From positions 1-20,766 of the IMG/VR virus record IMGVR_UViG_3300044997_001207: a stretch of DNA of 20,766 nucleotides. The stretch is one strand, 5' to 3'. The notes under the pieces are model-generated. The model did no database searches. It saw only the letters and a program-made list of their open reading frames with translations, and was not told the DNA's origin. The DNA is from a virus. Below, piece by piece: positions 1-20,766 of the stretch (its first letter is position 1; every line of letters starts with the position of its first letter). Both the position numbers and the translations under genes were made by a program.

Positions 1-2178
1 CAATCTGGCTTATTTGAAATAGACAACATACTATTTAAAAATCAAAAACAAAAAAAAATAGCAGAAGCGAAAAGAAATAGCATAATTTCTCAATCTACGA
101 TAAATCTACAGACGTACGTAGACTCCGGAGTAGCCAGTCTTTTAAAAAGTGGTAAAGAACCTGCCGATATAGAGGCGCTATATTCTTATAAAGATACGTT
201 AGAATTATTTAAAGACGATTATTACTTCGACGATTCTTCTGGCCTCGAACAAAACGATATAAAAAACTATAATTTTGAATTAATATCGGCTGGTATACAT
301 CCTGCTTCTATAGTTTCTAAATTTGAAAATTATTTTTTTGACGATAAAATTATTTCATTAAGAAATTACTATTTAAACGATTCTTTGAAATCCTTAGATC
401 GAGAATCTTCTTATTATGTCGCGACCAAACAAAAAAAATTAAACAACAAAATATCGATCAGGACTTTACTAGAAATACCTAAAAATTTAGTACAAAATTC
501 CGTAGATATACATTTCGAAGTTTCAAAATTAGAAAAAAGAAAAAATTGCAGTTTATTTACATCAGATTCGCCAGTTGAAAGAATTGTTAAGTCACTAGAC
601 TTATTAAAACATTATAAATTTTTTAAGTTACAAAATAATCCGCCGACGATTAGCGTTAAAGGCGATGAGATAGTAACAAAACAAATCGACAAAAATGCTG
701 ACACTATAAAGATAGAGAAAAAAGAAATAAGCAATTCAGGAGAGTGTACAAAATATTCTTTAGTTGATCAAGAATTTGTTGCACCTAATCATGCGATAAG
801 CGTAAAAGAACCGCAGCCTGATAATAAATTTTGTCTTTTTAGGTGTATCTCTAGTAATTCTTCTACAACTATAGTTAATTCTTTAATAAACTGTGCCGTA
901 ACTGGAAAAACTACTACTAAAATTAACACGTTGACGATGTCTATAAGCGATCGTCAAGGGTCTTTAAGCGGCGTAGAAATAAACGTCAAATATCCACCTA
1001 GGTTTATTTCGCAATTTCAAGTTAGTAAAAGACAATGGCTCGGCGCGGCTTTTGGTCCCAAAAAAGTAGTTTCTCAATACCAATATTTCGAAGGACAGTC
1101 TACTATAGTTTTAGATGAAGAAATAAAACATACAGAAATATGCGAATATGTCGTAGATTACAAAACAGAAACTGGAGAAATAAAAAACGATTATATTACT
1201 AGAATATATCAGTATTTTAAGGACATAAAAAATTCCGTAATCTCTGTTGAGATCCAAAATCCTTTATTATCTGTAGTAAACGGAAAGCCAGAATTTACCT
1301 TCACCGTAATTGCGACTACGCCAGCTAGTGATGCTGATAAAGCAGAGTCTCTTTCTGGTTTAGCTGGCGTTACATCTAATAACTCTAACGCAAAAAGACT
1401 TGACTCTATGTCTAGTTTAAGTGATTCATATCATCATGTAGTTAGTCGACTTAATTTAAAAACAGGTGAAAGAAGTTATTTTTTAGAAAATTACAGTAAA
1501 GATATTTTGTTCGGTGCTGATCCCAGAAATATTAGTCTAAGAGACACGTTTGAAAATAGAAAATACAATAACACTGCGCCTTTGGATTTAACGGCAGATT
1601 ATCTTTACGAAGTAAGATCTTATAGAAAAAATACTTTAGCGACGATGAAAGACTATATCGATATGGTGGCTTTACCTCCTTCGTCTAATCGAGCTTCTCC
1701 TCGCGTATATTACTATCGCCCATTTAAGTGGAGACAAAATTATACCACGGAGACAGGTACACTCCCTGCTTTAGATGAAAAAAATAACTTATTGACTAAA
1801 ACTTTTATGGAAGACGGAGAGATAGGGGTAACAGCTACCTATTTATTAACCAATTTGAATAAAATTCTAGCAGTAAATTCTGTAATCGCCGAAAGAATAG
1901 ACGCTAACAAAGTTAGGCTATCTTGGAAATTACTAGGATCTATAGAAGAATTTGACCACTTCATAATAGTGAAAGAAGTTAATAAAATAAGGAAATTTAT
2001 AGGCGCAACGTTTAATCAAGAAATGTTCGATGTATTAGAGAACGATGACTTAGGTACGATAATTTATTACGTTACGCCTATTTCCTTTGATTTTTCTGTA
2101 GGCGTCTCTCGTCGATCTAATTCTATGTTGGTAGATCCCGAAGAGTTAGATTTTAAACAACAAATTTCGGAGACTTGA
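1..2178 (+). CDS. Phage virion protein with C-terminal FnIII-like domain, 5'-partial
   Basis: Frame 1 is open from base 1 to a TGA at 2176-2178, so the gene begins upstream of the window and at least 725 codons are visible. The first usable start-like codon, a TTG at 385, has clear protein-like sequence before it and should not be taken as the start. The visible protein is beta-rich and aromatic. At about residues 620-715 it has a fibronectin-III-like pattern (KVRLSWKL, a FDHFIIV strand, then IIYYVTPIS). An earlier beta-rich section starts near residue 330 (PPRFISQFQV). FnIII-like modules are common in phage tail and baseplate proteins, and the next two genes follow directly, so a tail or baseplate component is the best inference. 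I do not recognise a specific T4 homologue. The next gene starts four bases after the stop. Confidence 0.75.
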   Translation, partial: QSGLFEIDNILFKNQKQKKIAEAKRNSIISQSTINLQTYVDSGVASLLKSGKEPADIEALYSYKDTLELFKDDYYFDDSSGLEQNDIKNYNFELISAGIHPASIVSKFENYFFDDKIISLRNYYLNDSLKSLDRESSYYVATKQKKLNNKISIRTLLEIPKNLVQNSVDIHFEVSKLEKRKNCSLFTSDSPVERIVKSLDLLKHYKFFKLQNNPPTISVKGDEIVTKQIDKNADTIKIEKKEISNSGECTKYSLVDQEFVAPNHAISVKEPQPDNKFCLFRCISSNSSTTIVNSLINCAVTGKTTTKINTLTMSISDRQGSLSGVEINVKYPPRFISQFQVSKRQWLGAAFGPKKVVSQYQYFEGQSTIVLDEEIKHTEICEYVVDYKTETGEIKNDYITRIYQYFKDIKNSVISVEIQNPLLSVVNGKPEFTFTVIATTPASDADKAESLSGLAGVTSNNSNAKRLDSMSSLSDSYHHVVSRLNLKTGERSYFLENYSKDILFGADPRNISLRDTFENRKYNNTAPLDLTADYLYEVRSYRKNTLATMKDYIDMVALPPSSNRASPRVYYYRPFKWRQNYTTETGTLPALDEKNNLLTKTFMEDGEIGVTATYLLTNLNKILAVNSVIAERIDANKVRLSWKLLGSIEEFDHFIIVKEVNKIRKFIGATFNQEMFDVLENDDLGTIIYYVTPISFDFSVGVSRRSNSMLVDPEELDFKQQISET

Positions 2179-2182
2179 ATAG

Positions 2183-5100
2183 ATGCTATCAAAATCTAAA
2201 AAATTTAAACATGGTAAAGTATCTGCACAATCTGTCGGTAGTCAAGCTCATAATGTAGCATCAAAAACCTTAAAAAAACCATCGATCGTGTCTTATAAGG
2301 GATCGGATATTGTTCTAGATGAAACGATACCTCTTTCTAGAATTAATCTTCAAAAGAGCGTAGAAATTTTAGATAAAATTACGGGAATTAATAGCGATAG
2401 TCCTGAGATAATAGCATTATCTAACTTTATTCCAGCTTATGACAAGAATGGAAATCTAAATGAGTTTGGAGATTTTTTAAGAAAAAAACAAGATGCTCTA
2501 TTGATTCGTGCAGCGTCTAACATCTCTAACATACTATCAAGCCCAGAAGTTTCTTTGGACAACTTGGTTTCTAACACGGATGCTAACTCCCAATCTATAG
2601 TTGGTTTTTGCGAAAATAGCGCTCGTGGAATTGAAGATTTATTAACTCATTTTTCTAAAATAAAAAGAAAAATGGATTTTAGATCCCCTCTTGATAAAGA
2701 AACTTTAAGACTTATCGGATCATTACCGCCAGATATCATTTTAAATGACGATAATTCTCCCAATCTTTTTCCTGATACATCGATATTGCCCATTGAGGAA
2801 GTTTTATTTGAAAATAGTGATACAATAAAGCACTGGACGCCCACTAAAGTATGGATACAATCGTGTCTTGAATTAAAAGAGTTATTGTCTAATGGAATGG
2901 TAAGTTCTTTTTTATCAGATGGAGGCTTACTGGGCGTAGATCCTACCAACTATTCTTATTATGACCCTTATACTTTGACTCCGTCTCGTAATTCTTTAGT
3001 AAAAAAATTTGGATTTAACGAAACACAAAATCCTACTCATCCGTTACAGGGTCTTGTCACAGGCGACCCTACTGAATTTAAAAAAATAGTGCAAGTAGTG
3101 TCTGCTCTATTTGTCACGGGCGATTCTTCTATTTTTAATGAAAAAATATTTACAGATATATCTAGCCTAGACGAATCAATAGCTAAATTGAGCTACGTTT
3201 TATGTAAAGAATATGTTTATTCAACGCAAATGAGAAGCGATGTTTTGTCAGATTATGGTTATCCCTTTGCTTTAGGAGGCAAAAATGTTAATGTTTGGAA
3301 TCATTTAATAGGCCAGGCTGGCTCCGACATAACAGATATCCCTGCTGCGCCTTTGGGGGGTGGTAAATCTTTAATTAGTCTAGCTTCCAGTCGAGAACCT
3401 GATGGCGCCGAGGTATTATCATTCGAAGACAGATACATTAACGACAACATAGGGACAGTACGTCCCGACGCGATAATAGTTCCTGGTACGCTGTATTACA
3501 TTGAAAATTCTATTAATATTACTAACGGTGGATTCAATCTAACAAGTTTGAACAGATACGTAACTAAATTAAGCTCAGCTACCAACATGCTGAAGATGGT
3601 AAAGGAAGATTTGGGATTTTTGCCCGTCGAGCCTTACTCTAGCGTAAATAATAAGGTTTTAAATAAGTCGGAAGCCGGTGCTACGGCTTCCGGTTTTTAC
3701 TCCAAGATTGCTTCGACTATCGTTAATAAAAATAGAGATCCTAAAAAAGAGGAAATTAAAAACGCTTTATCGAATCCAATAAGTTTAATTCGTCACATAG
3801 AACAAAACGTTTTAAATGGTTCTGGTTTATTGAGAAGATCGAATGGTCCAAAACTTTGGACCAATAGGTCATTTTTTGATGTGGAGTTAGATGTAAGCGC
3901 GTTGCTAATTTCTTTAGCAATAGACAAAGATGATCCCGAGTTACAGGCACTTTTATTTTTACACCAGCTATATTCCCACAGTTATTCTAGACCCTTAATG
4001 GGAGACTTTAATAGGTCTAGTTCTACCAACGCTAGCGATGCAGTCGTAAAAACTCAAATTGTAGATAGAATTTTAGATACGATAAAAAATCTATTAGAAA
4101 CAGACACTATAAGTGTTGGATTTAGGTCCAACGAACAGATTTCAATATCGCTATCTGCCGTAAAAGAAGCATTATTGTCTCCTAAAAATTCTTCTAGTTT
4201 AAGGATTTTAAATAGGATAGGCGAACTATTTTTTGAATTCGATGAAAATTTTGATTTTAATAATACGCAATCTAGAACCAATGGAAGGTTCTTTCTAGAA
4301 AGAACAACAAGACTTACCAATACGCTTCAAAGACTTACGAATAGAAACGATTTAGATCCTGCTGATAAAATATCTGCTTACTCTGGTGTTCAAAAAACGT
4401 CATACGTAGTTTCATTATTTAAGCTTTGTTGTTTGTTAGTCCACGCTGCTAATCCCGAAAGATTTATTACTGTTAGTAAACCCTCTAGAAAGTTTCAATC
4501 AGTCGAAAAAATAACTATAAAAAGAGTAAGAAATGCTATTGTTGGTACTTTTTTAAGTCTTGAAGAAATAAATCAAGGCGTTACTAAGTTTAATTTTGAT
4601 CAATTTACCAATTCGGGATTTTTCCCTGCAGCTAAAGATTCGACGAATACAAAAAAACTAAAAATATTTGAACTACCTAATTCTTCAAAAAAAGGAATCA
4701 AGGTTTTCGATATAAAAAATACTAGTAAAAAAACTATATCTAACAACAAAAATGCTTCCCTAACTGTTCTTTATTATGACGACGTTATTGTAAAAACCGA
4801 AAATATGCTTGCTGACTATATCGTTAAATTCGATAAGTACATCGACAGATTTTATGGCTTTGTTTATTCTTTAAAAGATGAATTTTTAAAGTTAAAAAAT
4901 AATTTACAGTCTAACGGTTTTCAAACCTATAGTAGAAGTTTATTAGAATTTTCTAGATTGATAGCAGACCCGAATATTTCTAGAACTTTAATGAATGAAC
5001 AACAGCTGATGTTAATGAAAAGTAGAATGGTGGATTATGTCGAAAGATTAAACAAAAACTCTTATATTTCTCCTCTTAGAGAATCAATTCCACACTTTAT

Positions 5101-6154
5101 TAACATCAGCGATAAAAATAATATTGAGAATTTTTTACCTATCGAAGATGTACACCTAGTATCCTGGAATTTATTTCTTAAAGACTTTTTAAAAAGTGGT
5201 CCTTTCTATACGGGAGACGGATCTAATAAAAAAATAATCTCAGTCGGAATTCCACAAAAATTACATAGAAAAATGAGGGTGAATGCGTCTAGATTGAGCG
5301 GTCTAGTCGATAGAAATAACTTAATACAATTGTGTATTTTTAGAGTTAATTCGTTTTTACCAGATGTCATCTACAAGCCATTAGTTTATAATTTTGACTT
5401 GAGTTTATTTCCTACTAAAATTTTGTCGAACTATAAAAAATGTGGATTTTCTATTTCAGAAAATACTGGATTAAAAATTCATAAAAATTTAGTTAATTTT
5501 GAAAGAATATGTTTAAGCAATAACAATATAGAATCTTCCACGAATCCTGATAAACTTTTTACGCTAACATCCGACTTTATAGTAGACTTTATACCACACT
5601 TAAAAAGCAATTCGAATTATAAATTTACGCTAACAGATCCGGCTAATAAATCGACTATAAAAGAAAACAGTTATTCTTTTTTAAGTGATCAACAATTTAG
5701 TGAGTTGTATAGAAATCATTCAATTAGTTTTTTGTTGGAAGAATATCTTAGATTCGTTACAGACGTGCCGTTAGATGAGAACAAATATACTAATTACGAT
5801 GTCATAAATACAAAACGCTCTTCTAAATTTACAAAATTTACTAGTGAATTTATGGATCCCAATAGGGCTATGAATCCGACTTTTGAGAATTTTTTTAATG
5901 ATGAAAATTTGCTAAGTGGAATAATACCGACTATAAGAACCTTGGTTATGCCTAAAAAATTCGACAGAGTTTTTCACTTAATTTTTGATCCCGATGATTT
6001 CCAGTTAGATCCTCGAACCCCTCAGGAAGTAATTCAAAAATACGTTGGTAAAAATGGAAAGATCGAAGATTTAACTAAAAACGAAAATGACGAACCTACG
6101 TTCGACAAATATTATGTAGTAATAAAAAGTAACGAAGGAAGTGATGCTTCATGA
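2183..6154 (+). CDS. Very large phage structural protein of unknown function (1323 aa)
   Basis: Starts at ATG 2183, with a GGAG at 2169-2172 about ten bases upstream inside the end of the previous gene. It ends at TGA 6152-6154, overlapping the next start as ATGA. The N-terminus is basic and lysine-rich for about 35 residues; the rest alternates helical and asparagine/serine-rich stretches. I see no signal peptide, transmembrane segment or enzymatic motif that I trust. A match to the Walker A pattern near residues 389-396 has no Walker B partner and is probably chance. Its size, its position between two FnIII-containing proteins and its tight translational coupling suggest a virion component, probably of tail or baseplate; that is inferred from context only. 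The DNA contains an internal terminator-like hairpin at 3669-3698 and two long perfect palindromes (3844-3863, 4288-4305). Confidence 0.7.
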   Translation: MLSKSKKFKHGKVSAQSVGSQAHNVASKTLKKPSIVSYKGSDIVLDETIPLSRINLQKSVEILDKITGINSDSPEIIALSNFIPAYDKNGNLNEFGDFLRKKQDALLIRAASNISNILSSPEVSLDNLVSNTDANSQSIVGFCENSARGIEDLLTHFSKIKRKMDFRSPLDKETLRLIGSLPPDIILNDDNSPNLFPDTSILPIEEVLFENSDTIKHWTPTKVWIQSCLELKELLSNGMVSSFLSDGGLLGVDPTNYSYYDPYTLTPSRNSLVKKFGFNETQNPTHPLQGLVTGDPTEFKKIVQVVSALFVTGDSSIFNEKIFTDISSLDESIAKLSYVLCKEYVYSTQMRSDVLSDYGYPFALGGKNVNVWNHLIGQAGSDITDIPAAPLGGGKSLISLASSREPDGAEVLSFEDRYINDNIGTVRPDAIIVPGTLYYIENSINITNGGFNLTSLNRYVTKLSSATNMLKMVKEDLGFLPVEPYSSVNNKVLNKSEAGATASGFYSKIASTIVNKNRDPKKEEIKNALSNPISLIRHIEQNVLNGSGLLRRSNGPKLWTNRSFFDVELDVSALLISLAIDKDDPELQALLFLHQLYSHSYSRPLMGDFNRSSSTNASDAVVKTQIVDRILDTIKNLLETDTISVGFRSNEQISISLSAVKEALLSPKNSSSLRILNRIGELFFEFDENFDFNNTQSRTNGRFFLERTTRLTNTLQRLTNRNDLDPADKISAYSGVQKTSYVVSLFKLCCLLVHAANPERFITVSKPSRKFQSVEKITIKRVRNAIVGTFLSLEEINQGVTKFNFDQFTNSGFFPAAKDSTNTKKLKIFELPNSSKKGIKVFDIKNTSKKTISNNKNASLTVLYYDDVIVKTENMLADYIVKFDKYIDRFYGFVYSLKDEFLKLKNNLQSNGFQTYSRSLLEFSRLIADPNISRTLMNEQQLMLMKSRMVDYVERLNKNSYISPLRESIPHFINISDKNNIENFLPIEDVHLVSWNLFLKDFLKSGPFYTGDGSNKKIISVGIPQKLHRKMRVNASRLSGLVDRNNLIQLCIFRVNSFLPDVIYKPLVYNFDLSLFPTKILSNYKKCGFSISENTGLKIHKNLVNFERICLSNNNIESSTNPDKLFTLTSDFIVDFIPHLKSNSNYKFTLTDPANKSTIKENSYSFLSDQQFSELYRNHSISFLLEEYLRFVTDVPLDENKYTNYDVINTKRSSKFTKFTSEFMDPNRAMNPTFENFFNDENLLSGIIPTIRTLVMPKKFDRVFHLIFDPDDFQLDPRTPQEVIQKYVGKNGKIEDLTKNENDEPTFDKYYVVIKSNEGSDAS
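3669..3698 (+). terminator. Terminator-like hairpin inside a structural gene
   Basis: A perfect 9-bp inverted repeat, CGGAAGCCG (3669-3677) and CGGCTTCCG (3684-3692), has a six-base loop and is followed after one G by five T (3694-3698). A GC-rich stem plus a U-tract is the form of a Rho-independent terminator on the + strand. It lies wholly inside the 1323-codon gene, where full termination would block the downstream structural genes. It may therefore be an attenuator, an RNA-processing site or chance. The shape is visible; the function is unproven. Confidence 0.35.
3844..3863. repeat. 20-bp interrupted palindrome
   Basis: The arms TGGTCCAAA (3844-3852) and TTTGGACCA (3855-3863) are exact reverse complements around a two-base centre. 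It lies within the 1323-codon gene. The spacer is too short for an ordinary RNA loop without fraying, so a dimeric protein-binding site or chance are the alternatives. Confidence 0.4.
4288..4305. repeat. 18-bp perfect palindrome
   Basis: GTTCTTTCT (4288-4296) is followed directly by its exact reverse complement AGAAAGAAC (4297-4305). A second, overlapping pair sits just before it: AGAACC at 4274-4279 and GGTTCT at 4287-4292. Both are in the coding region of the 1323-codon gene. The function is unknown. Confidence 0.4.
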
Positions 6155-8250
6155 CTACTTTCTTTAGACCGAAAAACGAGCAACAGAGTTATTCCAAGCC
6201 TTCGGCGCCTGTCGTGTCGATGAATCTACCTCCGATAGCAAATTTTAATTCTGAATTTATTTACAATTATCACGTAAACGACGAAAGAACTAACGAATCT
6301 CCATCGATACCTGAGTATTTTAAAAAGAAATCTATGGAACAAACTAGTTCCGAGGTTCTTGATTATGCATTAAGAGTACCAAGATATGTTAAATTAACAT
6401 GGGATTTACCAAAGACGCCAATTGCACAGCCCGGCTCGTTATTAGAGAATAATTCTCAAAACTCCATTCAGTCAAACTTACAAAAAATTCACACCGAAGA
6501 ATCATTTTTAAAATCCAGATATTCTTCTTTTTCTCTATCAAATCAAGATGCAATTACTGATGCCGGTATCGAGATAAATAGCTTAGGTGGTAATAATATT
6601 TCTGCTTTAGCTGGTTCTAACGATAACTCTAAAGATGGTTTCGGTTCGTTTTTTGATGCCAAAGGAGTAGTAGCCAACAGCGGAAATCAAGCGTCGTTTT
6701 TGAATAATTCGACCAATGGAAAACCCAAATTAGTTAGATTGTCTAAAGATAGTAAAAAACTAAGAAACGACTTTCCGAATTCTATTGCAGAAATATCTAA
6801 ACGATCCAAAAATCAATTGGTCGGTTCAAAAAAAACAGGATTTAGTCCTTTCGCTGTTGCTGATACTTTTAATACCAATAGCTTAAAAAAAATTGGTGAT
6901 AACGCAAAAAATCCTTCTATCAAACAAGATATTCAATCTTCTACAAAAAACGTAGAAGACATGGCGATAGACCATCTAGCAAATGGCGTCATGTTTTTTG
7001 ATAAAAACGATAAGTTAAAAATTAGTTCTTCTGGATTTAGAAAAACTATAGAAGTTATTCAAAAAACTCCTTTATCTTTACAAATTAATAAACTAGTAGC
7101 TGTCGACGCCTTCGCCTCTTCGTCGATTCTTCCATTCGACTTAAGAAAAATTAACGACGAATTTCAAAAAGCTAGAAGTCAATTTAGCGAATTAGATGAT
7201 TCTTTTGGTCAACCGTTCTATATAGGACCGCAAATATTAAATCCCGACTGGTTTCAAACGACAGTTGGTGTAGCAGGTTATTTAATAGAGAGATCGATTA
7301 TGGGAGAAAGAGGTTTCGAAAAAGACAAAACCTACACTGTTGAAAATCCTCTTATAAATAATTTCGTTGATACCGCAGTCCTCTTCGGAAGAGCCTATCA
7401 TTATAGTATTAGAACTATTTTTAAGGTTATTACGACCGGTTACGATGATGATGCAGATGAGATTAGAGAAGTTGGTTATTTGATAGGCTCTAAGCCAGTG
7501 GAGACGATGATAAAAACTTTTGAATTCGTCCCACCACCTCCGCCAATAGACTTAAACTTTATCTGGGATTATAAAGATAAAAAATTGCAGATAACTTGGA
7601 ATATGCCTGTAAACTCGCAAAGAGACATCAAACAATTTCAAGTTTTTAGAAGAGAAAATATCGAAGAGCCCTTCGAGTTGATTAGTCAAAAATGTTTTGA
7701 TTTTTCTACTTTAAAATATACAACAGGAGAATCGATAGACGGTAATCTAAAAAACGAATATTCTCCCGAGTTTCAACAACTAATACAATATCACGAAGAA
7801 CCTGTAACTTTTCACATAGACGATGATTTTAAAATTAATCCTCGCGCGTTGAAAGCTTCAAAATATATTTATTCTATTGTTTCGATCGACGCTCATGGTA
7901 TGAGTTCTAACTACAGTTCTCAATTCGAGGTTTCGTTCGATTTTTTCAAAAATGTTTTAACTAAAAAACTAATAAGTTCTGCTGGTGGGCCTAAGCCATA
8001 CCCTAATTTATATTTGAATATAGACGCGTTCAAAGATGTCATAAAAACTTCTGGCATGTCGTCAACCAAGCTAAAAGTATATTTTATGCCAGAATACTTT
8101 AAAATCATGTATGGTGACTACAGGATTCAAAGAATGGTTTCGACCAAACAAGACAACGCTTATTATAAAATTCAGTTCATCAATCTTCAAAATCAAAAAA
8201 GTGATTCTTTAAAAATTACGATAGACGACCCGCACGAATTAACAAAATAA
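6151..8250 (+). CDS. Phage virion protein with polyproline hinge and FnIII-like domain
   Basis: 699 residues, starting at ATG 6151 in an ATGA overlap with the previous gene and ending at TAA 8248-8250. Residues 1-300 are polar, rich in Ser, Asn and Lys, and look loosely structured. Residues 300-455 look folded and beta-rich (for example AYHYSIRTIFKV near 415). A proline run, VPPPPPIDL at about 460-468, forms a hinge to a fibronectin-III-like domain at about 466-597, seen in LQITWNMP, IKQFQVFRR and the final strand YIYSIVSIDAHGMSSNYS. A further 100 residues follow. The domain type matches the C-terminus of the first gene in the window, so the two may be parts of the same tail or baseplate structure. 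The gene is coupled to the 1323-aa protein and was probably made from one late transcript. I cannot assign a specific role. Confidence 0.72.
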   Translation: MTTFFRPKNEQQSYSKPSAPVVSMNLPPIANFNSEFIYNYHVNDERTNESPSIPEYFKKKSMEQTSSEVLDYALRVPRYVKLTWDLPKTPIAQPGSLLENNSQNSIQSNLQKIHTEESFLKSRYSSFSLSNQDAITDAGIEINSLGGNNISALAGSNDNSKDGFGSFFDAKGVVANSGNQASFLNNSTNGKPKLVRLSKDSKKLRNDFPNSIAEISKRSKNQLVGSKKTGFSPFAVADTFNTNSLKKIGDNAKNPSIKQDIQSSTKNVEDMAIDHLANGVMFFDKNDKLKISSSGFRKTIEVIQKTPLSLQINKLVAVDAFASSSILPFDLRKINDEFQKARSQFSELDDSFGQPFYIGPQILNPDWFQTTVGVAGYLIERSIMGERGFEKDKTYTVENPLINNFVDTAVLFGRAYHYSIRTIFKVITTGYDDDADEIREVGYLIGSKPVETMIKTFEFVPPPPPIDLNFIWDYKDKKLQITWNMPVNSQRDIKQFQVFRRENIEEPFELISQKCFDFSTLKYTTGESIDGNLKNEYSPEFQQLIQYHEEPVTFHIDDDFKINPRALKASKYIYSIVSIDAHGMSSNYSSQFEVSFDFFKNVLTKKLISSAGGPKPYPNLYLNIDAFKDVIKTSGMSSTKLKVYFMPEYFKIMYGDYRIQRMVSTKQDNAYYKIQFINLQNQKSDSLKITIDDPHELTK

Positions 8251-8295
8251 GGTATCAATTTTAGGAATTCAATATCTATTGTAGATTATAGACTC

Positions 8296-8300
8296 GGAGG
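8296..8300 (+). promoter_or_regulatory. Strong ribosome binding site for the 235-aa virion protein
   Basis: GGAGG at 8296-8300 stands seven bases before ATG 8308. It is the best Shine-Dalgarno match in the structural block. It fixes the start and, since this is the first gene after a 57-base gap (8251-8307) rather than a coupled one, suggests independent and strong translation. Confidence 0.7.
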
Positions 8301-8307
8301 CTTCGAA

Positions 8308-9015
8308 ATGGGCTATCTAGATAATTCAACAAACAACATTATATTAGACGCAGTATTAACAGACTATGGTCGTCAAGCTTTAGCAAGAAACGACGGTTCT
8401 TTTAGATTAGCTAAATTTGCTCTTGGAGACGACGAGGTCAATTACGGTATCATTACGAAGTACGGTAGAACGGTCGGAAGAGAGAAAATAGAAAAAAACA
8501 CTCCTATTTTTGAAGCTTTTACTAATCAAAATTTAGGATTGAAATATCGCATGATAAGTGCGCCTAGACCGTTCACATATTTACCAAAACTTACTTTAGT
8601 ACCGACTACTCAAACTTCGGTGTCACTAGCTACGAGCGGAGACACTGTGGCATCTTTCATTAAATTGGAACAACAACCCAATGGCGGCGAGACAACCATA
8701 GACGCAGATATCGTCGAAACGAATTTTGATGTTTTTGTACCAGACCTATTCTTAATGATAGAAAATCAAGCCTCAGTAGGAACGCCAGATTCTAATAAAA
8801 TCGCCAAATATGTAATTCGAGTTTCGAATGGCGGGACAGTTCCTACTTTAGAGTTTAGGTTAAAAGTAAAACCGTTGACTTCTGCTATTTTTACCACTTA
8901 CGGTAGAGTTACTACTGGTCTGACTAGAGAGATAACTACTATAGTCAAGGTTGTTGGTCGAAATTCGGGAGCCGTAGTAGAAATACCAGTCACCATTACG
9001 TCGACTTTGAAATAA
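8308..9015 (+). CDS. Phage virion structural protein, conserved N-terminal module
   Basis: 235 residues from ATG 8308 (GGAGG seven bases upstream) to TAA 9013-9015. The N-terminus carries a pattern I associate from memory with structural proteins of large environmental phages: MGYLDN, then DAVLTDYGRQALAR and FALGDDEVNY (residues about 14-46), followed by KYGRTVGREKIEKNTP (about 51-66). The second half is beta-rich and ends in an Ig-like run of alternating hydrophobic residues (TTIVKVVGRNSGAVVEIPV, about 210-228). It lies between tail/baseplate-type proteins and two genes sharing a C-terminal module. No enzymatic motif is seen. Virion protein is fairly safe; the exact place in the particle is not known to me. 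Confidence 0.75.
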   Translation: MGYLDNSTNNIILDAVLTDYGRQALARNDGSFRLAKFALGDDEVNYGIITKYGRTVGREKIEKNTPIFEAFTNQNLGLKYRMISAPRPFTYLPKLTLVPTTQTSVSLATSGDTVASFIKLEQQPNGGETTIDADIVETNFDVFVPDLFLMIENQASVGTPDSNKIAKYVIRVSNGGTVPTLEFRLKVKPLTSAIFTTYGRVTTGLTREITTIVKVVGRNSGAVVEIPVTITSTLK

Positions 9016-9031
9016 ACCATATTAAATAAAT

Positions 9032-9052
9032 TGATATAATAGATAAAGAGGA
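9032..9052 (+). promoter_or_regulatory. Possible extended -10 promoter next to the RBS of the 421-aa gene
   Basis: The 43-base gap before ATG 9059 contains TGA followed by a perfect TATAAT (9032-9040), matching the extended -10 form TGnTATAAT of sigma70 promoters. No convincing -35 box is seen at 16-18 bases, but extended -10 promoters need it less. Transcription would begin near 9047, very close to the ribosome site AGAGGA (9047-9052), leaving a leader of only about a dozen bases. In an AT-rich gap this could be chance; the ribosome site is more certain than the promoter. Confidence 0.38.
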
Positions 9053-9058
9053 ATTAAG

Positions 9059-10324
9059 ATGGCGACATTTCATGAATTAGCACCCGGCGATATAAAGACA
9101 GCTAGATCATTTTTGAATCAACTGATCGACGTCCTACAGGAAGATATTAGCGGCTCGACTTCAAGAAGAAAATATCAACATTTCGTAACGGGTGGTGTTG
9201 GTCCCGGCGTCACGTCGTCACTATTCCAGACAGTTTACGATCAAGATTTTACGCTTCAAACCGCCAACGCAGTATTCGATATAACGATGGGCCTCGCCCC
9301 TGAAGGATCTCTTACTACGGGAATAGCAGCTACTAGTACGACCGAGATCGACGCTACAGGTAAAGCGCTTTATCCAAGTAGTTCTTTGATGATGCGCGAA
9401 AAAGTTGATAATTATCGACAGTTTGCTCAAGTGTTATTAGGCAATGGCGATTCGCTTTTTAAGGTTCCACTTGAAGGTACGTCGGCTACTAACATTGATG
9501 CAGCTATGTTTATAGCTTTTAAAAGACTTTTTGCAAGAGATCAAATTAAGCGTGAAACTTTTGCGATGAGATTTTATCAGACGGCTTCTGCCGTTTCAAA
9601 AGACTTCGATGGCGGTGATATCGATATGCCACCGATTCCTGACATAAGCGGCATGTCTAACTTGAACGTCACAACGCTTTCTGGATCGACAATATTTACT
9701 GATCTTGGGGCTTCTACACAAAAGTTTACCACTGCAGGTGGTCAATATGGTTTAATCGTAGATTCCGCTAATACGTCTAGACAAGTTGGTTTGATGTTTT
9801 ATGACGCTGGCGTAGCAATTTTTGATCTTGCAAAGATTACGTCAGGTAGTCAATTTATGTCGGGTACGATCGATGCAATGCATCCGATAGGACAAATTAC
9901 GCTCGGAGGAGTCAATACAGCAACCCATAAAAAATCTAAATTTTTACCTGATTTCGTGACGTCTGGTAGCATTGATAATATCATTGATCACTTGTGCAGT
10001 GCGAGATTCCAGTCAGGATCTTTAACTGCAATAACTTTCCAAAACGTAACTAACATTAATTCGTCTTTAATATTCTGTAGAGCTCCTGCGGACGAATTCA
10101 ATTATTCCTCCAATCCGACGTTCGTAGATACGTCGGCTAATTCCAAGGGTAGAATAGTCGTCATTGATCCTGGTGAAGAAGACAAACAAGAGTCTTTCAC
10201 CTTCGTAACGGGTATTGGCATGTACGACGCGTCGGGTAATCTTCTTGCTATCGCTAAACTAAGTCGTCCTGTCGAAAAGAGCCCCGAAAGAGACCTTACT
10301 TTTAGAGTTCGTTTAGATTTCTGA
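9059..10324 (+). CDS. Phage virion protein with shared C-terminal module (421 aa)
   Basis: Starts at ATG 9059 behind AGAGGA (9047-9052) and ends at TGA 10322-10324. The N-terminal section (MATFHELAPGDIKTARSFLN) looks helical. The middle is Gly/Ser/Thr-rich and beta-like. The last 80 residues (about 340-421) hold a distinct module: an EFNYSSNPTF motif near 346-355, then TGIGMYDASGNLLAIAKLSRP, then FRVRLDF at the C-terminus. The next gene ends with a recognisable version of the same module, so the pair probably arose by duplication or shares an assembly partner. I recall this EFNYSxNPT ... VAKLSxP ... VKLDF pattern in structural proteins of other large phages. A virion, probably tail or baseplate, role is inferred. 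It may have its own promoter. Confidence 0.75.
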   Translation: MATFHELAPGDIKTARSFLNQLIDVLQEDISGSTSRRKYQHFVTGGVGPGVTSSLFQTVYDQDFTLQTANAVFDITMGLAPEGSLTTGIAATSTTEIDATGKALYPSSSLMMREKVDNYRQFAQVLLGNGDSLFKVPLEGTSATNIDAAMFIAFKRLFARDQIKRETFAMRFYQTASAVSKDFDGGDIDMPPIPDISGMSNLNVTTLSGSTIFTDLGASTQKFTTAGGQYGLIVDSANTSRQVGLMFYDAGVAIFDLAKITSGSQFMSGTIDAMHPIGQITLGGVNTATHKKSKFLPDFVTSGSIDNIIDHLCSARFQSGSLTAITFQNVTNINSSLIFCRAPADEFNYSSNPTFVDTSANSKGRIVVIDPGEEDKQESFTFVTGIGMYDASGNLLAIAKLSRPVEKSPERDLTFRVRLDF

Positions 10325-10342
10325 TGTATCGGGAAAATTAAG

Positions 10343-12838
10343 ATGGCTATATTGCCTGTTACAGCAGATGACATAGAGTTTTTTACTACAGTCATCAATG
10401 TTTCTCGCTCTTATATTTCTTCGAGTAATGGTGGTGTAACAGGCTCAATTAACCTTTTCGCTCGTTCATCTAAGATAGAAAAAGAAGTTAGACCACTCAC
10501 TAATTTTTTGTCATCAATTATTAACGATGAGGATTTAGAAAACTATAGAAGAGCAGTAATTTCTGCTGCTAAACAAACACCTATTAGCGGATCTTTTTAT
10601 CAGAACATAAATGATTATCTAGATGAAGTTAACCTACAAACGAGATCCGCCAGAAAACAAAAACAATTAAATATCGTTAGATTTGTTCCTGGCGTTGCTT
10701 TAACTTCTAACATGTGTAGAAAGTGGAATGTTAAGGATATGTTGATGCCATATTATCGCATCTCGTATCCAACGGCGCATTGGACTTACAACAACTATCA
10801 TTCGTTGAATTTTTTTGATGCCAAGACGGTACCAACTTCTTCGGTGTTGTTATATCCTAGCGTGGTTAATGAAAACTTACCCGAGCATCTAGGATACGTT
10901 GCGGGAACCTACGCTTTATCTGGGCCTTTTAGTTTTGATTTTAAGATAAATCCCCGTCACAAAACGGACCCCGACTCCACATCTTTTAAGGCGGGGACTA
11001 TTTTTCACATGTCGTCTAGTTATGCGCTTTCTTTGATTACAGGATCAAAAAAAGACATTAATGGTTTGCCCGTGTCTTTTAGACTATTATTACAATTAAG
11101 TCACAGCGCTGACGTTTCACCATCTAAGGCGATACCCGGGTCTTATCCAAATGATTTAATATTTTTATCGGAAGATAATAGTCTTGACTGGAATAATTGG
11201 CATCGTGTAGTTGTTAGATGGGGCACAAATTTAGTCAACGATGGTACCGGATCTTTTAATGTAGATGGCATAGATAGAGGCACGTTCGTAATTCCATCTG
11301 GCACGATAATGCCTAAGCTATATACTGGAAATTTTTACGACCCTACAGTGCTGTGTGTTGGAAATTTTTATGAGGGCATAAATTCGGGTAGTTATAGTCA
11401 ATCTTATTTTTTTACAGACGTTGCTGCTAAAAGAGATGGATTAGAACAGCTAGTTTATACGGGCGACTTAAAAGACGAACCAGATACTTTTAAATTTGAA
11501 CATCCTCTCAAGGCGGAATTGCATAATTTAACCATTCGTAGACATTATTTAAGTGATGTAGAAATATTGCAGACTTCTGGCAGCGGATTGTCGTCCACGG
11601 ATCCCCAAAAAATAGCTTTCTACGCGCCTCCATTTTTTATTGAAAAAACGAATATTAGAAGAAGAGCGACGTCGGCTTCGGCTTCTTATGGTGGTATATT
11701 GCAAACTCCTTTTTTTGAAATAGACGGTTCTACCGATGATCCGTTCAACGTGGCTATGGCTTTTGGAGTAAATGGACACTATATTAATCTTGAAAATTTC
11801 GTAAAAGATTTTGCGAATGACGTTTTTCCAAGACTACATCATTTGTCTGGTACGGCGATCGACCATACGACGTCTGCTATAACGGCTAATGAATTTTTGT
11901 ACAATGATCCCCGAGTAAGACGAAGAAATTTAACAATTCTTCCTTGCGACGATGGTAATTTCTCACCGAACTATCAACTAATATCAGACAAGGTAAAAAA
12001 CAAGGCTATAAACGCGTATGGGTTAACCGACGTAAGTTTGATTAGTTTAGACAATCTACTTAATACGTCGTCTTTACTTTTTGGAAAAACTTACGAAGAT
12101 TCTCACGACCAATCCTTCTTAAATCAACAAGTCGGATTTACGCCCGAAAATCCAGGACATTCGCCAGGTCCTGCTATCCTTAGCTTAAAGAAACAAATTG
12201 AATCTACAATCTTAGTTGATGAAAGCGCGTACGATGCTGGTGTCCAAAGAGACGTGCCTTTAGCGGTATATCAAAGAACTAAGGATTCTTCTTCTAATCA
12301 GGTTACATTTTTTGATATTAGCAATTTGTTCTATGGAAGCAGAATACTACCAGGAAGTTTTGAACTAACAGATTTGTCATTGTCTGGTTCGGCTGGTCAG
12401 GTTTCTATTAAACTAAAAGACGACGGCTTTGGCAACATATATCGTGCCGATTGTTTAACGCCAGCTTGCACGTGGAATTCTGTCGGTAATATTTTTTATA
12501 ACGAAGGAATCGTAGTGATAAAAAATCCTCATCTAAATTTCTTCGGTAAAGACAAATATGAAATGAGTTTTAAGGGAGAACACAAATTATTCTCTTCGAA
12601 ATATGGAATTTTGGCTCCGCGAGGTCTATTAAATTCATCTTCAAATTTGACATACGCGGCTAACGAATCAGCGTTGAGCGCTTCTTTTGATCTCGACGAT
12701 AAAGAAAAATTCGTTTACATTTCAGGCTTAAATTTTCATGATGAAAATTTGAACGTAGTCGCTAAAGCTGCATTAGCGCAACCGATTATGAAACGAGAAG
12801 GTGAAAGAATCTTGTTTAAGGTAGCTTTCGACTTCTAA
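10343..12838 (+). CDS. Large phage structural protein with LamG-like domain (831 aa)
   Basis: Begins at ATG 10343, 18 bases after the previous stop, and ends at TAA 12836-12838. At about residues 194-408 the sequence has the order of a LamG / concanavalin-like beta-sandwich: FSFDFKI, then NNWHRVVVRWG, VDGIDRGTF, and closing strands ELHNLTIRRHYLSDVEIL. Such folds often bind glycans, so a host-contact or decoration role is possible but unproven. Near 707-740 comes ACTWNSVGNIFYNEGIVVIKN-type sequence, then the C-terminal module (about 755-831) shared with the preceding 421-aa protein: SGLNFHDENLNVVAKAALAQP and FKVAFDF. It is most likely a tail or baseplate protein. The next gene starts one base after its stop. 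Confidence 0.75.
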   Translation: MAILPVTADDIEFFTTVINVSRSYISSSNGGVTGSINLFARSSKIEKEVRPLTNFLSSIINDEDLENYRRAVISAAKQTPISGSFYQNINDYLDEVNLQTRSARKQKQLNIVRFVPGVALTSNMCRKWNVKDMLMPYYRISYPTAHWTYNNYHSLNFFDAKTVPTSSVLLYPSVVNENLPEHLGYVAGTYALSGPFSFDFKINPRHKTDPDSTSFKAGTIFHMSSSYALSLITGSKKDINGLPVSFRLLLQLSHSADVSPSKAIPGSYPNDLIFLSEDNSLDWNNWHRVVVRWGTNLVNDGTGSFNVDGIDRGTFVIPSGTIMPKLYTGNFYDPTVLCVGNFYEGINSGSYSQSYFFTDVAAKRDGLEQLVYTGDLKDEPDTFKFEHPLKAELHNLTIRRHYLSDVEILQTSGSGLSSTDPQKIAFYAPPFFIEKTNIRRRATSASASYGGILQTPFFEIDGSTDDPFNVAMAFGVNGHYINLENFVKDFANDVFPRLHHLSGTAIDHTTSAITANEFLYNDPRVRRRNLTILPCDDGNFSPNYQLISDKVKNKAINAYGLTDVSLISLDNLLNTSSLLFGKTYEDSHDQSFLNQQVGFTPENPGHSPGPAILSLKKQIESTILVDESAYDAGVQRDVPLAVYQRTKDSSSNQVTFFDISNLFYGSRILPGSFELTDLSLSGSAGQVSIKLKDDGFGNIYRADCLTPACTWNSVGNIFYNEGIVVIKNPHLNFFGKDKYEMSFKGEHKLFSSKYGILAPRGLLNSSSNLTYAANESALSASFDLDDKEKFVYISGLNFHDENLNVVAKAALAQPIMKREGERILFKVAFDF

Positions 12839-12839
12839 T

Positions 12840-13247
12840 ATGCCTTCTAAAAAGTCTCGTAAAAGAAAAGGAAAAAGCAAAAGGCGCTACAATAGAGGGA
12901 TTCACATTTCTCCCATAGCAGGCGAATGCAAATATCGTTCGGGATGGGAACAAAAATACATGATTCATCTCGACGAGGATCCTACCGTGGTGACCTGGTC
13001 ATATGAAAAATTAGCGATAGAATATATTTCCAATCAAAAAACAAAAAAGACGCGAAAGTATTATCCAGATTTTCAAGTTGAGTATAGGGACGGTAAAAAA
13101 GTCGTAATAGAAATTAAGCCATCTCGTAAGCTTGGTCAAATGACAGTTGTAAAAAAGATTAGAGCAGCTATGTCGTGGTGCGCTGCTCGTGATTTGACTT
13201 ATAAAATTCTTACAGAAATAGACTTAAGAGACATGGGTTTAATTTAA
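12840..13247 (+). CDS. 4: Head-completion nuclease-like protein (T4 gp4-like)
   Basis: 135 residues from ATG 12840, one base after the previous stop, to TAA 13245-13247. The N-terminal 20 residues are very basic (KKSRKRKGKSKRR), suiting DNA contact. The remainder matches the PD-(D/E)xK pattern of T4 gp4 and TnsA-like nucleases: YRSGWEQKYM with Glu37, then YYPDFQVEY with Asp77, then VIEIKP with Glu91 and Lys93. It ends in YKILTEIDLRDMG, close in form to the C-terminus of T4 gp4 as I recall it. In T4, gp4 acts late in head assembly, around completion of DNA-filled heads before tail joining. All core residues are present, so it should be catalytically able. Its place after structural genes fits. 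TnsA-like nuclease of another role is the main alternative. Confidence 0.82.
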   Translation: MPSKKSRKRKGKSKRRYNRGIHISPIAGECKYRSGWEQKYMIHLDEDPTVVTWSYEKLAIEYISNQKTKKTRKYYPDFQVEYRDGKKVVIEIKPSRKLGQMTVVKKIRAAMSWCAARDLTYKILTEIDLRDMGLI

Positions 13248-16118: not shown

Positions 16119-19100
16119 ATGGTTAAAATTGCGCATACTGCTGACGTACACTGGCGTGGTTTAAGTCGCCACGATGAATATCGTCAGGTATTTGAGGCGT
16201 TCGTTAAAGATTGCAAAAAAAATAAAGTAGATCACATTTTCGTCGGTGGCGATATTTTTCACACAAAAACGACAGGAATATCTCCTGAGTACATCGATCA
16301 ATTGACATGGTGGCTTGAGACGATGGTCAAAATTGCCGAAGTTCATTTGACGCTAGGTAATCACGACGGCAATTTAACAAATCTCTCTAGACAAGACGCG
16401 GTTTCACCAATCGTTCAAGCTCTTAATAATCCTAAGATTCACGTTTACAAGAAAAGTGGAGCGTACGAGTTTCATCCAGGGTATAACTGGTGCGTTTATT
16501 CTCTTTTTGACGAAGAAGGCTGGAAGTCCGTCACGCCCCAATCAGGCAAAGTGAATATTGCTTGTTATCATGGCCCCGTACAAGGGTCTGTGACGGAGGT
16601 TGGTTGGGAAATGGAAGGTATGAACCTTGAGTTTTTCAAGGAATATCCTTTCGTTTTTCTTGGTGACATCCACCAGATGCAACATTTAGGTTATCGAGAT
16701 TGCCTCGACGGCAAAAAGAAGCCATGGATTTCTTATCCTGGAACTCCCATTCAACAAAACTATGCAGAAGAATTAGAACATGGCTATCTATTGTGGGATA
16801 TCGATGACCACAGGACGTGGGATGTTTCTTTTAAGAAATTGCCCAATCCTAAACCATATGTTACCATTCCTTGGAATGGTTCTATTGAAGATCTAATTTC
16901 TTCTGCCTCTAAACACCCAGATGGAACTAGATTTAGGATTCGTTCGAGTGACGCATTAGGACAAAAAGATTTCAGCCTAATCAACGAATCTTTGCGTAGT
17001 GTTAAGTCGGCTACCGAGGTGACTTTTAAGTCTGATTTTATCGTAGATAAGTCGGTCGTAAAAACGAACTCTGTGATGCTAGAAAAAGCCGATCTAAGAA
17101 ATTCAGACGTGTTGTTAAAGCTTATTAAAGACTATTATTCTGGCACTCAAGTCACCGAAGAACAGTGGAAGATAGTTTCAGAACAAGTGAAGTCTTGTCT
17201 TTCGGCTGTCACTGCTGCTGAAGAAACCGTCCGTAATTCTAAGTGGTCACTTCGATACTTGGAATTTGATAACATGTTCGCTTATGGCGAAGGTAACTCG
17301 ATTAATTTTGACAAACTCAATGGTATTGTCGGTGTCTTTGGTCCGAATAGGATAGGCAAGTCTTCCATCATCGGTACTCTCATGTATTCGTTGTTTAACG
17401 CGACCGACAGAGGACCGATGAAGAACATCCACGTTTGCAACATTCGTAAACCTTATTGTTCTTCTAAGGCTATTATCAATCACGACGGCGTTGATTATGT
17501 CGTTGAACGCCAAACTACGAAGAGCGAAAATAAAAAAGGCGTAATAAACGCCTCCACTGCATTAAACGTCTTTAAGATTAGAGACGACGGTGAAGCAGAC
17601 GATTTAGCTGGAGAACAACGAACGGATACTGAAAAGGTCATTCGCGCTCTCATCGGCAATCAAGAAGACTTTATGATGACATCTCTCGCAGCGCAAGGCG
17701 AGACCAATCAATTCATATCACAGGGTTCGACACGCCGCCGAGCTGTTCTATCTAGATTTTTAGATCTGGATATCTTCGACAAGATGCACGAATCGTCGAA
17801 TAGGGAACTCGCGACGTATAAGTCGCAGTTAAAAAATTATCCAGATAGAGAGTGGTCTTCGATTATCCAGCAAGGCCAGAATGCCATCATAGAAATTGAC
17901 AAACGAATTGGCGATTTACATCAACAGATAAAAGAGAAGCAACAGGTTATTTCTCAATTACAAATTGAATTATCTAAGCACGCAGGTACGCCAGTTACCA
18001 AGATTCAAGTGGAAACATTCGCAAAGCAACTTGCGAACCTAGAACAGTGTTACAAGAATTGTTTAATTGATATTTCTCATTTTGAAAGTGAGATAGAAGA
18101 AAGCAACAAAAAATTAAAGACCATAGAACTCGTTAAATCTGAAAACGACGTGGGCGAATTACGGTCTCAGCTTGCGGCGTTGAAGGATCTTGAATCTTCT
18201 TTGTCGTCACTAAACTTTATTTATGAGAAAGAAAATACGCTTTTTGCTCAACAAAAAAAGTCATTAAAAATATTAGACGAGGTACCCTGTGGTGATGATT
18301 ATCCTACTTGTAAATTCATTAAAGACGCTCACGTCAACAAATCGAAGCTATCGGATCAACAAGTCAAAGTAGAACAAGCACAAAAAAAACTAGAGAAGGC
18401 AAAGAAGGCTTTTGAAGAAGCTGGAAATGAAAATTTGGTCGCAAGACTTGAGAAGATGGAAAAACTAATGTCTCTGGAGACCAAACTACTTCTAGATATT
18501 TCTAAAAAAGAAAATGAGCTTGAAAAATCGAGACTTCTCGGAAGCTCACAAGAGCTCGAGCTAAAAAATGCTAAAGAAAAATTGAAAACCCTCGAAGAGG
18601 CTCTAAAAAATGAGGATAATGCAGAGGCAGTTTCTATCAAGTCGAATATAGAAGATATTTCTAGGGCTATAGATTCTTTGACTGCAGACAAAATAGACGC
18701 AGCCACCCGCAAGGGTAAGTTGACGGCGAACCTAGAAAAAGTCAACGAAGAAAAAAATGCTAGGAATAGCTTGTTAGAAAAGATGAAGGTCCACGAGCTA
18801 GTGACCGTCGCTTTTTCTAAAAAGGGTTTGCCATTGATTATTACGAAATCACAATTACCCGTGATCAACGCGGAAATCGCCAAGATTCTTAGTGGAATCG
18901 TAGATTTTACAATCGAGCTTGAAAATGACGAATCGACGGATTCGTCAGAGATTTATATCAACTATGGGGACTCTAGGCGCATCATTGAGTTGTGCAGCGG
19001 AATGGAAAAGACAATCGCGTCGTTAGCTATAAGAGTCGCGATGATTAACGTTTCTTCTTTGCCCCAGCCAGATATTTTCATCATAGACGAAGGCTTCGGC

Positions 19101-19277
19101 ACTTTGGATGACGCGTCCGTAGAGGCTTGTAACCGTTTACTGGTTTCTTTGAAGAGGCACTTTAAGACGATACTAATTATTACTCATGTCGATGGCGTTA
19201 AAGACATTGTCGATCATGTATTAGAGATTACGAAAAATGAGAAAGATTCTCGAGTAGTTTTTGGAGCAGAATCATGA
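16119..19277 (+). CDS. Single-chain Mre11-Rad50 (SbcD-SbcC, T4 gp47-gp46) fusion nuclease
   Basis: 1052 residues from ATG 16119 to TGA 19275-19277. The N-terminal part (about 1-270) is an Mre11/SbcD-type metallophosphoesterase: Asp9 and His11 in TADVHW, Asp45 in GGDIFH, GNHD at 80-83, His151, and GDIH at 182-185, where Asp183 replaces the usual His. Residues about 320-375 may be the Rad50-binding helices. The rest is Rad50/SbcC: Walker A FGPNRIGKSS (408-416), a Q-loop near Gln526, coiled coils about 560-720 and 735-895 flanking a CX6C hook (Cys724, Cys731), the signature ELCSGMEKT (957-965), Walker B IFIIDEGFGTLDD (986-998) and His1023. In T4, gp46 and gp47 are separate and resect broken ends for recombination-dependent replication. 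All motifs lie in one uninterrupted frame, in the 47-then-46 order. The next gene starts in an ATGA overlap. Confidence 0.92.
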   Translation: MVKIAHTADVHWRGLSRHDEYRQVFEAFVKDCKKNKVDHIFVGGDIFHTKTTGISPEYIDQLTWWLETMVKIAEVHLTLGNHDGNLTNLSRQDAVSPIVQALNNPKIHVYKKSGAYEFHPGYNWCVYSLFDEEGWKSVTPQSGKVNIACYHGPVQGSVTEVGWEMEGMNLEFFKEYPFVFLGDIHQMQHLGYRDCLDGKKKPWISYPGTPIQQNYAEELEHGYLLWDIDDHRTWDVSFKKLPNPKPYVTIPWNGSIEDLISSASKHPDGTRFRIRSSDALGQKDFSLINESLRSVKSATEVTFKSDFIVDKSVVKTNSVMLEKADLRNSDVLLKLIKDYYSGTQVTEEQWKIVSEQVKSCLSAVTAAEETVRNSKWSLRYLEFDNMFAYGEGNSINFDKLNGIVGVFGPNRIGKSSIIGTLMYSLFNATDRGPMKNIHVCNIRKPYCSSKAIINHDGVDYVVERQTTKSENKKGVINASTALNVFKIRDDGEADDLAGEQRTDTEKVIRALIGNQEDFMMTSLAAQGETNQFISQGSTRRRAVLSRFLDLDIFDKMHESSNRELATYKSQLKNYPDREWSSIIQQGQNAIIEIDKRIGDLHQQIKEKQQVISQLQIELSKHAGTPVTKIQVETFAKQLANLEQCYKNCLIDISHFESEIEESNKKLKTIELVKSENDVGELRSQLAALKDLESSLSSLNFIYEKENTLFAQQKKSLKILDEVPCGDDYPTCKFIKDAHVNKSKLSDQQVKVEQAQKKLEKAKKAFEEAGNENLVARLEKMEKLMSLETKLLLDISKKENELEKSRLLGSSQELELKNAKEKLKTLEEALKNEDNAEAVSIKSNIEDISRAIDSLTADKIDAATRKGKLTANLEKVNEEKNARNSLLEKMKVHELVTVAFSKKGLPLIITKSQLPVINAEIAKILSGIVDFTIELENDESTDSSEIYINYGDSRRIIELCSGMEKTIASLAIRVAMINVSSLPQPDIFIIDEGFGTLDDASVEACNRLLVSLKRHFKTILIITHVDGVKDIVDHVLEITKNEKDSRVVFGAES
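18926..18947. repeat. 9-bp hairpin with tetraloop inside the Rad50 part
   Basis: TGACGAATC (18926-18934) and GATTCGTCA (18939-18947) are exact complements around a four-base loop. No T-run follows on either side, so it is not a terminator. It codes for an acidic, probably loop, segment (NDESTDSSE) before the ABC signature. Codon choice alone may explain it. Confidence 0.35.
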
Positions 19278-19619: not shown

Positions 19620-19997
19620 ATGCCTAAAATTGACTATAACGCTCTTGGACAAGCCATAGATACGACGTGGGGCCGAGCATCCACTCCTAAGATGGCGTCT
19701 TATTCAGTTAAATTTACTTTAGCCGGCGACGTTTTGACTGCTTCATACCAAGCTGTCGTTAATTTTGCCTCTGAAAAAGAAATGATTATGATGAATAGAA
19801 TGTACGAAGAAGAATCTAGCGACATAATACAGGCTGTGTTAAAAAGCGTCAAAGCAGTCTATAAGGATTTATCGGGATCTACTTTGACCACGAAAGAGCA
19901 CTCTACCAATACTTCCGTCGAAATAATCGGTGTTAACGTTCATAATCCAAAGAGAACCGCGTACTTTCGTAGAAAGACAGCATTTGAAATAGCCTGA
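19620..19997 (+). CDS. Conserved-looking phage protein of unknown function (125 aa)
   Basis: ATG 19620 follows GGAG (19610-19613) at a good distance, and TGA 19995-19997 overlaps the terminase start by one base (TGATG). The sequence has a two-strand beta pattern (SYSVKFTLAGDVLTASYQAVV, read as two segments), an amphipathic helix (about 48-78), and a basic end, NPKRTAYFRRKTAFEIA. I do not recognise the family. Close coupling to the large terminase suggests a role in packaging or head structure; a small terminase subunit cannot be claimed, since no helix-turn-helix is evident. Confidence 0.62.
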   Translation: MPKIDYNALGQAIDTTWGRASTPKMASYSVKFTLAGDVLTASYQAVVNFASEKEMIMMNRMYEEESSDIIQAVLKSVKAVYKDLSGSTLTTKEHSTNTSVEIIGVNVHNPKRTAYFRRKTAFEIA

Positions 19998-20766
19998 TGC
20001 AACAACCCTTAACAAGAAACGACCAAATAAAGGAGATCGTACGATGCGGAAAGGATCCGATCTACTTTATGAAGAATTATGTCAAGATCCAACACACTGT
20101 GCGAGGTCTTATACCCTTTGAAACTTACGACTTTCAAGATGATTGTATTCAACAATTTGAAACGAATCGTTTTAATATCGTTCTTAAGTCTCGTCAGCTA
20201 GGTTTGTCTACCGTAACTGCTGCTTATGCTGTTTGGTTTGCAATCTTTAAGAAAGATAAAAACATTCTTGTCATTGCGACCAAGCTGTCAACTGCGATGA
20301 ACTTCATTAAAAAAGTGAAGATCATGTTGGACGGTCTTCCAAAATGGTTGCTTCTTACTAAGTTTGAACCGACGAAGCAGGCCATCAGGTTCGACAATGG
20401 TTCTCAAATTAACGCGATACCCACTTCGCCCGATGCCGGTCGTTCTGAGGCGCTGTCTTTATTGATCGTCGACGAGGCTGCGTTTATTAGAGACTTTGAA
20501 GACATCTGGACTGGTCTTTATCCTACTCTGTCGACGGGTGGTAATGCTGTCATCATCTCGACTCCTAATGGCGTTGGCGGTCAATATTATCGTCTTTGGA
20601 TGGATGGCGAAACGAAGCAAAATGAATTTAACACGATTAAGCTTCCGTGGTGGGCCCATCCAGAACACGACGAAGAGTGGTTCGCAAAAGAAACAAAAAA
20701 TTTACCAAAACGTAAAGTTGCACAGGAATTTTTATGTGTAGCAGAAGGAAGTCGTGTAATAACCAA
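19997..20766 (+). CDS. 17: Large terminase subunit (T4 gp17-like), 3'-partial, apparently intein-interrupted
   Basis: Open from ATG 19997 to the window end, 256 codons visible. The packaging ATPase is clear: Walker A-like KSRQLGLSTV (64-73), Walker B LLIVDEAAF (155-163, with Asp159 and Glu160), and the coupling motif IISTPNG (186-192). The P-loop is deviant: Leu70 replaces the usual lysine and Lys64 stands at the front, as in the lambda terminase type. After KRKVAQEFLC (238-247), where homologues normally run on into the nuclease domain as CDF or similar, the sequence reads VAEGSRVIT instead, and the first catalytic Asp of the nuclease is not seen. This junction is annotated separately as an intein. 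TGATG coupling explains the weak ribosome site at 19997; a better one at 20030-20035 serves only an out-of-frame ATG. It should power DNA translocation into the prohead. Confidence 0.9.
   Translation, partial: MQQPLTRNDQIKEIVRCGKDPIYFMKNYVKIQHTVRGLIPFETYDFQDDCIQQFETNRFNIVLKSRQLGLSTVTAAYAVWFAIFKKDKNILVIATKLSTAMNFIKKVKIMLDGLPKWLLLTKFEPTKQAIRFDNGSQINAIPTSPDAGRSEALSLLIVDEAAFIRDFEDIWTGLYPTLSTGGNAVIISTPNGVGGQYYRLWMDGETKQNEFNTIKLPWWAHPEHDEEWFAKETKNLPKRKVAQEFLCVAEGSRVIT
20735..20766 (+). other. Probable N-terminus of an intein in the large terminase
   Basis: From Cys247 (20735-20737) the protein reads CVAEGSRVIT, matching intein splicing block A, C-(L/V)-x-x-(G/D)-(T/S)-x-(V/I)-x-T: a nucleophilic Cys first, Gly-Ser at 5-6, Val at 8 and Thr at 10. 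It begins just where the terminase motif AQEFL is normally followed by Cys, which would be the +1 residue needed after splicing. Inteins commonly sit in conserved sites of essential phage and replication genes. Only ten residues are inside the window, so blocks B, F and G and any homing endonuclease cannot be seen. A diverged native terminase sequence is the alternative. Confidence 0.7.

Follow-up and report, generated by a model that had tools for sequence, protein, structure and literature searches.

The viral DNA analysed here (the window, 20,766 nucleotides (nt), positions 1 to 20,766 of IMG/VR record IMGVR_UViG_3300044997_001207) ends within a gene for a T4-type large terminase (TerL). 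This gene is very probably interrupted, between residue 246 and a native cysteine, by a mobile class 1 intein that carries a homing endonuclease of the LAGLIDADG type, as judged from its sequence and that of relatives which read through the break. The insert is visible in the window for 32 nt only (10 codons and 2 nt), which encode CVAEGSRVIT.

The terminase gene at the contig end

The last open reading frame (ORF) of the window (19997–20764, plus strand, with no stop before the contig ends) matches Pfam Terminase_6N (E 3e-15) and the PHROG terminase large subunit (E 2e-46). An earlier note, made from the letters alone, had described the protein as a normal packaging ATPase up to AQEFL that is then interrupted by an intein at the ATPase-nuclease junction, and the first part of this description agrees with the Pfam and PHROG matches over residues 1–246. 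Residues 244–256 read EFLCVAEGSRVIT; the terminase sequence departs at codon 247, a Cys codon at 20735–20737 that is followed by VAEGSRVIT up to the end of the record at 20766. The start of the insertion had been placed at the same codon, and the ORF translation confirms both the position and the reading frame. Three features are distinguished:

19997 to 20734, plus strand: N-extein, the packaging ATPase domain of a T4-type TerL, 246 residues (Pfam and PHROG; T4 gp17 homologues 3ezk/3cpe for the relatives).
20648 to 20734, plus strand: extein tract of 87 nt, 100% identical to contigs L002 and L003; probable left co-conversion tract or assembly junction (nucleotide alignments).
20735 to 20766, plus strand: first 32 nt of the putative intein, CVAEGSRVIT; the contig stops within block A (identical to L002/L003, exact 29-mer).

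IMG/VR was scanned with the window TerL protein and the 80 best loci were kept, about 70 of which cover the insertion site. In nearly all of the latter, the frame passes uninterrupted into the nuclease domain by way of QEFLCDF(I/T)SSGDTF or a similar sequence, so that uninterrupted terminases aligned to the flanks show C^DF (a caret marks a junction) where the window departs. Four loci depart at exactly the window's residue (C-V/L-A/G...) and each resumes at CDF, after inserts of 398 amino acids (aa) in L002 and L003, 399 aa in L040 and 400 aa in L048; a fifth intein-bearing relative, L137 (405 aa), was found by junction search. One uninterrupted ORF of 931–948 aa encodes the whole in L002, L003, L040 and L137, and the ORF of L048 leaves its contig within the nuclease domain. 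After the HN^C of the 398-aa intein, L002 and L003 go on as nuclease domain (CDFISSGDTFLQ).

What ties the window to these relatives is its final 119 nt: 87 belong to the extein and 32 to the intein, and all are 100% identical to L002 and L003. This identity to two contigs that read through the break upholds the interruption proposed in the earlier note. Upstream of the shared tract, identity to L002/L003 is 83% over 178 nt and 82% over the 467 nt before those. Among 2.9 million contigs, the terminal 29 nt of the window have exact matches in L002 and L003 only; as a sequence match this lies far beyond chance, and by its letters the window copy is the L002/L003 allele. Because the visible part is identical, the window's intein is credited with the properties of the L002 intein. 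Nothing of the window's own copy can be read beyond 20766, where the record ends; its continuation past that position was also absent from all other viral contigs.

Anatomy of the intein and its insertion site

In L002 and its relatives, the intein blocks A (CVAEGSRVITKNGYEFIENIKPGDEVLT), B (TGNH) and F/G, ending LHN before Cys, could be aligned, and two LAGLIDADG-type blocks lie between B and F/G, namely block C (VGLYLAEG, with E176) and block E (RGLLEGHYLGDG, with D274). C1, T66, H69, E176, D274, H397 and N398 are invariant across nine aligned inteins, with identity down to 23%. The splicing residues of class 1 inteins (C1, TxxH, HN and a +1 Cys) are all present in L002, L040, L048, L137 and the distant inteins, and the window itself shows C1 and the start of block A only. 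The L002 intein matches Pfam Hint_2 above the cut-off (E 7e-7), NCBIfam intein_Cterm above its cut-off, and Pfam LAGLIDADG_3 slightly below the curated cut-off (E 4e-4). Its AlphaFold model (predicted local distance difference test 85, predicted TM-score 0.86) finds as best Foldseek matches PI-SceI (E 9e-16) and the TliVMA intein (TM 0.63/0.68), and the endonuclease fold also matches I-DmoI. The Hint_2 match and the resemblance of the model to intein structures point to a HINT fold, and the two LAGLIDADG motifs with conserved acids to a probable endonuclease. PI-SceI (Sce VMA) and TliVMA likewise combine a HINT splicing domain with a LAGLIDADG endonuclease, but they share only 13–15% identity with the L002 intein and reside in another host protein.

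Most of what had been anticipated beyond the break is thus found in the relatives that read past it: blocks B, F and G, LAGLIDADG motifs, the resumption as CDF into the nuclease domain, and a native Cys, preceded by HN, that opens the nuclease side and serves as the +1 splice residue. The earlier note had left it undecided whether the element is split or carries an endonuclease. The endonuclease is borne out by the two LAGLIDADG motifs of the relatives, and the split form is not, every member found being contiguous; the window's element is accordingly presumed to be contiguous and endonuclease-bearing.

The insertion point aligns between residues 353 and 354 of T4 gp17, adjoining the domain junction; in the gp17 structure the nuclease domain starts near residue 360. 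Unless removed, about 400 inserted residues would hold the ATPase and the nuclease apart. Removal of the intein on paper restores the host protein: L048 minus its intein equals the TerL of L057 save 1 of 1173 nt, and L002 minus its intein aligns without gaps to the intein-free L006. It is envisaged that terL would yield a single long precursor protein (about 930 aa in the relatives), from which the intein would excise itself via the chemistry of Cys1 and Cys+1, rejoining ATPase and nuclease as a normal TerL. A dependence of packaging on prior splicing would follow from this anatomy. In co-infecting phages whose terL lacks the intein, the endonuclease would cut the gene, and repair of the cut gene would copy the intein together with flanking exon DNA.

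Probable homing footprint and competing explanations

Empty and filled alleles of the site occur in nature. L057 lacks the 1200-nt intein and differs from L048 by the single mismatch in the terL extein, and the two are 99.8% identical across 4.2 kb upstream. L002 and the intein-free L006 differ at 95 bases over 1605 nt, of which 71 fall within 373 nt around the insertion (-265 to +107; 19%) and the other 24 are spread over the remaining 1232 nt (2%). As the alignment reads, such clustering is what co-conversion leaves behind when a double-strand break is repaired. Of the L002 tract, the innermost 87 nt recur exactly in the window, whose backbone is closest to the intein-free L004/L005, and intein-free relatives show only 75–86% identity to that flank. 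In the TerL tree, the five intein-bearing rows fall on five branches, require five changes and never form one clade in 200 bootstraps. Together these footprints indicate homing into empty alleles with co-conversion. Pairwise identity of the L002, L040, L048 and L137 inteins is 49–67%, and the family is therefore old at this TerL site and apparently still moving. With the natural pairs L048/L057 and L002/L006 (the latter showing the co-conversion tract), a direct test of intein homing becomes feasible for uncultured T4-like phages.

Some points weigh against a mobile intein in the window's own terL. The visible piece is so short that everything beyond it is read by analogy with L002/L003. At 20648 identity leaps from about 83% to 100%, with 119 nt left before the contig end, which fits merged assembly paths. 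Moreover, 119 is a default k-mer length of the MEGAHIT assembler, so a junction or chimera is possible. The virus would then have an intein-free terL, and the assembler would have strayed onto k-mers from a co-occurring intein-bearing virus like that of L002/L003. This is considered unlikely, since paths normally merge only over a tract that both lineages truly have, barring removal of the true continuation by the assembler, and no examined intein-free relative has the 87-nt sequence. L002 itself has a co-conversion tract at the site relative to L006, and homing is expected to produce identical flanks in backbones that differ.

A second alternative is a variant of the mobile intein rather than its opposite, and is compatible with it: the element may be a degenerate remnant that splices and no longer homes. 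Mini-inteins do exist among phage inteins, for example the 159-aa intein in the TerL of Salmonella phage Mooltan. Here, though, all members keep the full 398–405 aa, both endonuclease acids are retained, a LAGLIDADG fold is predicted, and there are a fresh co-conversion tract and a near-isogenic empty-site pair, so that only a slim chance is given to loss of homing. Least probable is a split intein of the AceL/Cat-TerL type, whose short IntN would end the window gene soon after the contig end and leave the nuclease half as a separate gene: viral contigs often carry such inteins at precisely this point of TerL, but their IntN pieces start C-L-S/G-G-D/E-T, not CVAEGSR, and the window's 32 nt of intein DNA are identical to the contiguous L002/L003 intein.

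Known inteins of terminases and other observations

The insertion site is already known as the home of split inteins of the AceL/Cat type. With the CatC sequence of PDB 6dsl as query, 80 viral loci were fetched (L208–L287), nearly all of which read SHN and then CEFLGS(V/T)(D/N)TL, the start of the TerL nuclease; the N-half was inspected in eight of them, and there the ORF runs up to QFKVEFE^C (CLSGDT...), or a similar sequence, and finishes with a short IntN. AceL-TerL itself presumably occupies this site too, with support from its engineered consensus relative, Cat. To our knowledge, the site was previously known only for these split AceL/Cat inteins, which are used in protein engineering. 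The AceL-TerL, GOS-TerL and Cat-TerL split inteins share with the window's family the gene and the insertion point, as well as a +1 Cys, the residue given for AceL-TerL in a review (PMC11766414). They differ in being encoded by two genes, with an IntN of 25–37 aa and no internal endonuclease, whereas the L002 family has one gene with a LAGLIDADG intein of about 400 aa. The single ORF of 931–948 aa in L002, L003, L040 and L137 departs from the two-gene arrangement, and the window's own continuation lies past the contig end. Common descent with the AceL-type inteins found no support in a profile comparison, which gave no more than generic similarity, though the profiles are shallow.

Inteins in TerL as such are familiar. 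Terminase inteins of mycobacteriophages (TerL1-a to -e, TerL6-f and Pham3880-g) occupy seven sites, all described in the ATPase domain, and for some of them the homing endonuclease was demonstrated to be active and splicing to be efficient (PMC5050341); they are contiguous, as is the L002 family, but the latter sits at the ATPase-nuclease junction. The T4-like TerL of Kuttervirus (Salmonella phages Marshall and Mooltan) is also interrupted by an intein (PMC3853055, PMC6486243), but this is the 159-aa mini-intein, located here in the Walker A motif (ARQSGK^C...HN^TT), and it was ruled out as a same-site candidate by that location. In the human gut phage MT835790 (L132, 1456–3951), TerL carries an apparent HNH-containing intein, unannotated in the record; its position at the C-motif (IVNS^C...SHN^TPYGVG) ruled it out likewise.

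A tblastn search of cultured phages with the intein gave matches at about 24% only, so no isolate relative was found, and full-length matches in bacterial and archaeal genomes reached only about 25%. Neither the cultured phages nor the open-access papers searched had a LAGLIDADG intein of the contiguous kind at this TerL site, and absence from such papers is weak evidence. The present family adds a contiguous and apparently actively homing intein to the site; as both kinds occupy it, one can investigate whether split inteins give way to contiguous ones there and vice versa. One conceivable, if rather improbable, reading is that the QEFxC hinge of TerL attracts inteins of unrelated lineages as a hot spot, contiguous LAGLIDADG ones here and split AceL-type ones elsewhere, and that splicing at this point may be a control step which keeps the active packaging motor back until late in infection.

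In L207 (G001:C1:134500-149281, from a 149-kb virus record; reverse strand, 2495–10799), TerL is spread over three ORFs (120, 774 and 728 aa) and, by its sequence, has four apparent inteins. The first is split, at Walker A; the second is a contiguous LAGLIDADG intein at the C-motif, ending HQ^T; the third is split (QEFS^C...SKN^CKF) and lies at the same site as the window intein; and the fourth is a contiguous LAGLIDADG intein at the nuclease HDD motif. Two related ORFs of about 500 aa lie between the 774- and 728-aa pieces, and the C-half stretch of this TerL also occurs in L092–L095. Some of L208–L287 have a second intein C-junction at Walker A (SHN^STTVV), and the ORF of L254 starts IntC-like.

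Elsewhere in the window, positions 1–12838 hold six large ORFs (235–1323 aa) that are probably structural, with no PHROG match at E 0.001. Directly after them (12840–13247) follows a protein with a TnsA-like endonuclease N-terminal domain (Pfam E 1e-16). A 1052-aa ORF at 16119–19277 joins SbcD-like (gp47) and SbcC-like (gp46) parts (PHROG 100 and 77); Salmonella phage Mooltan has a separate gene for each of the two.
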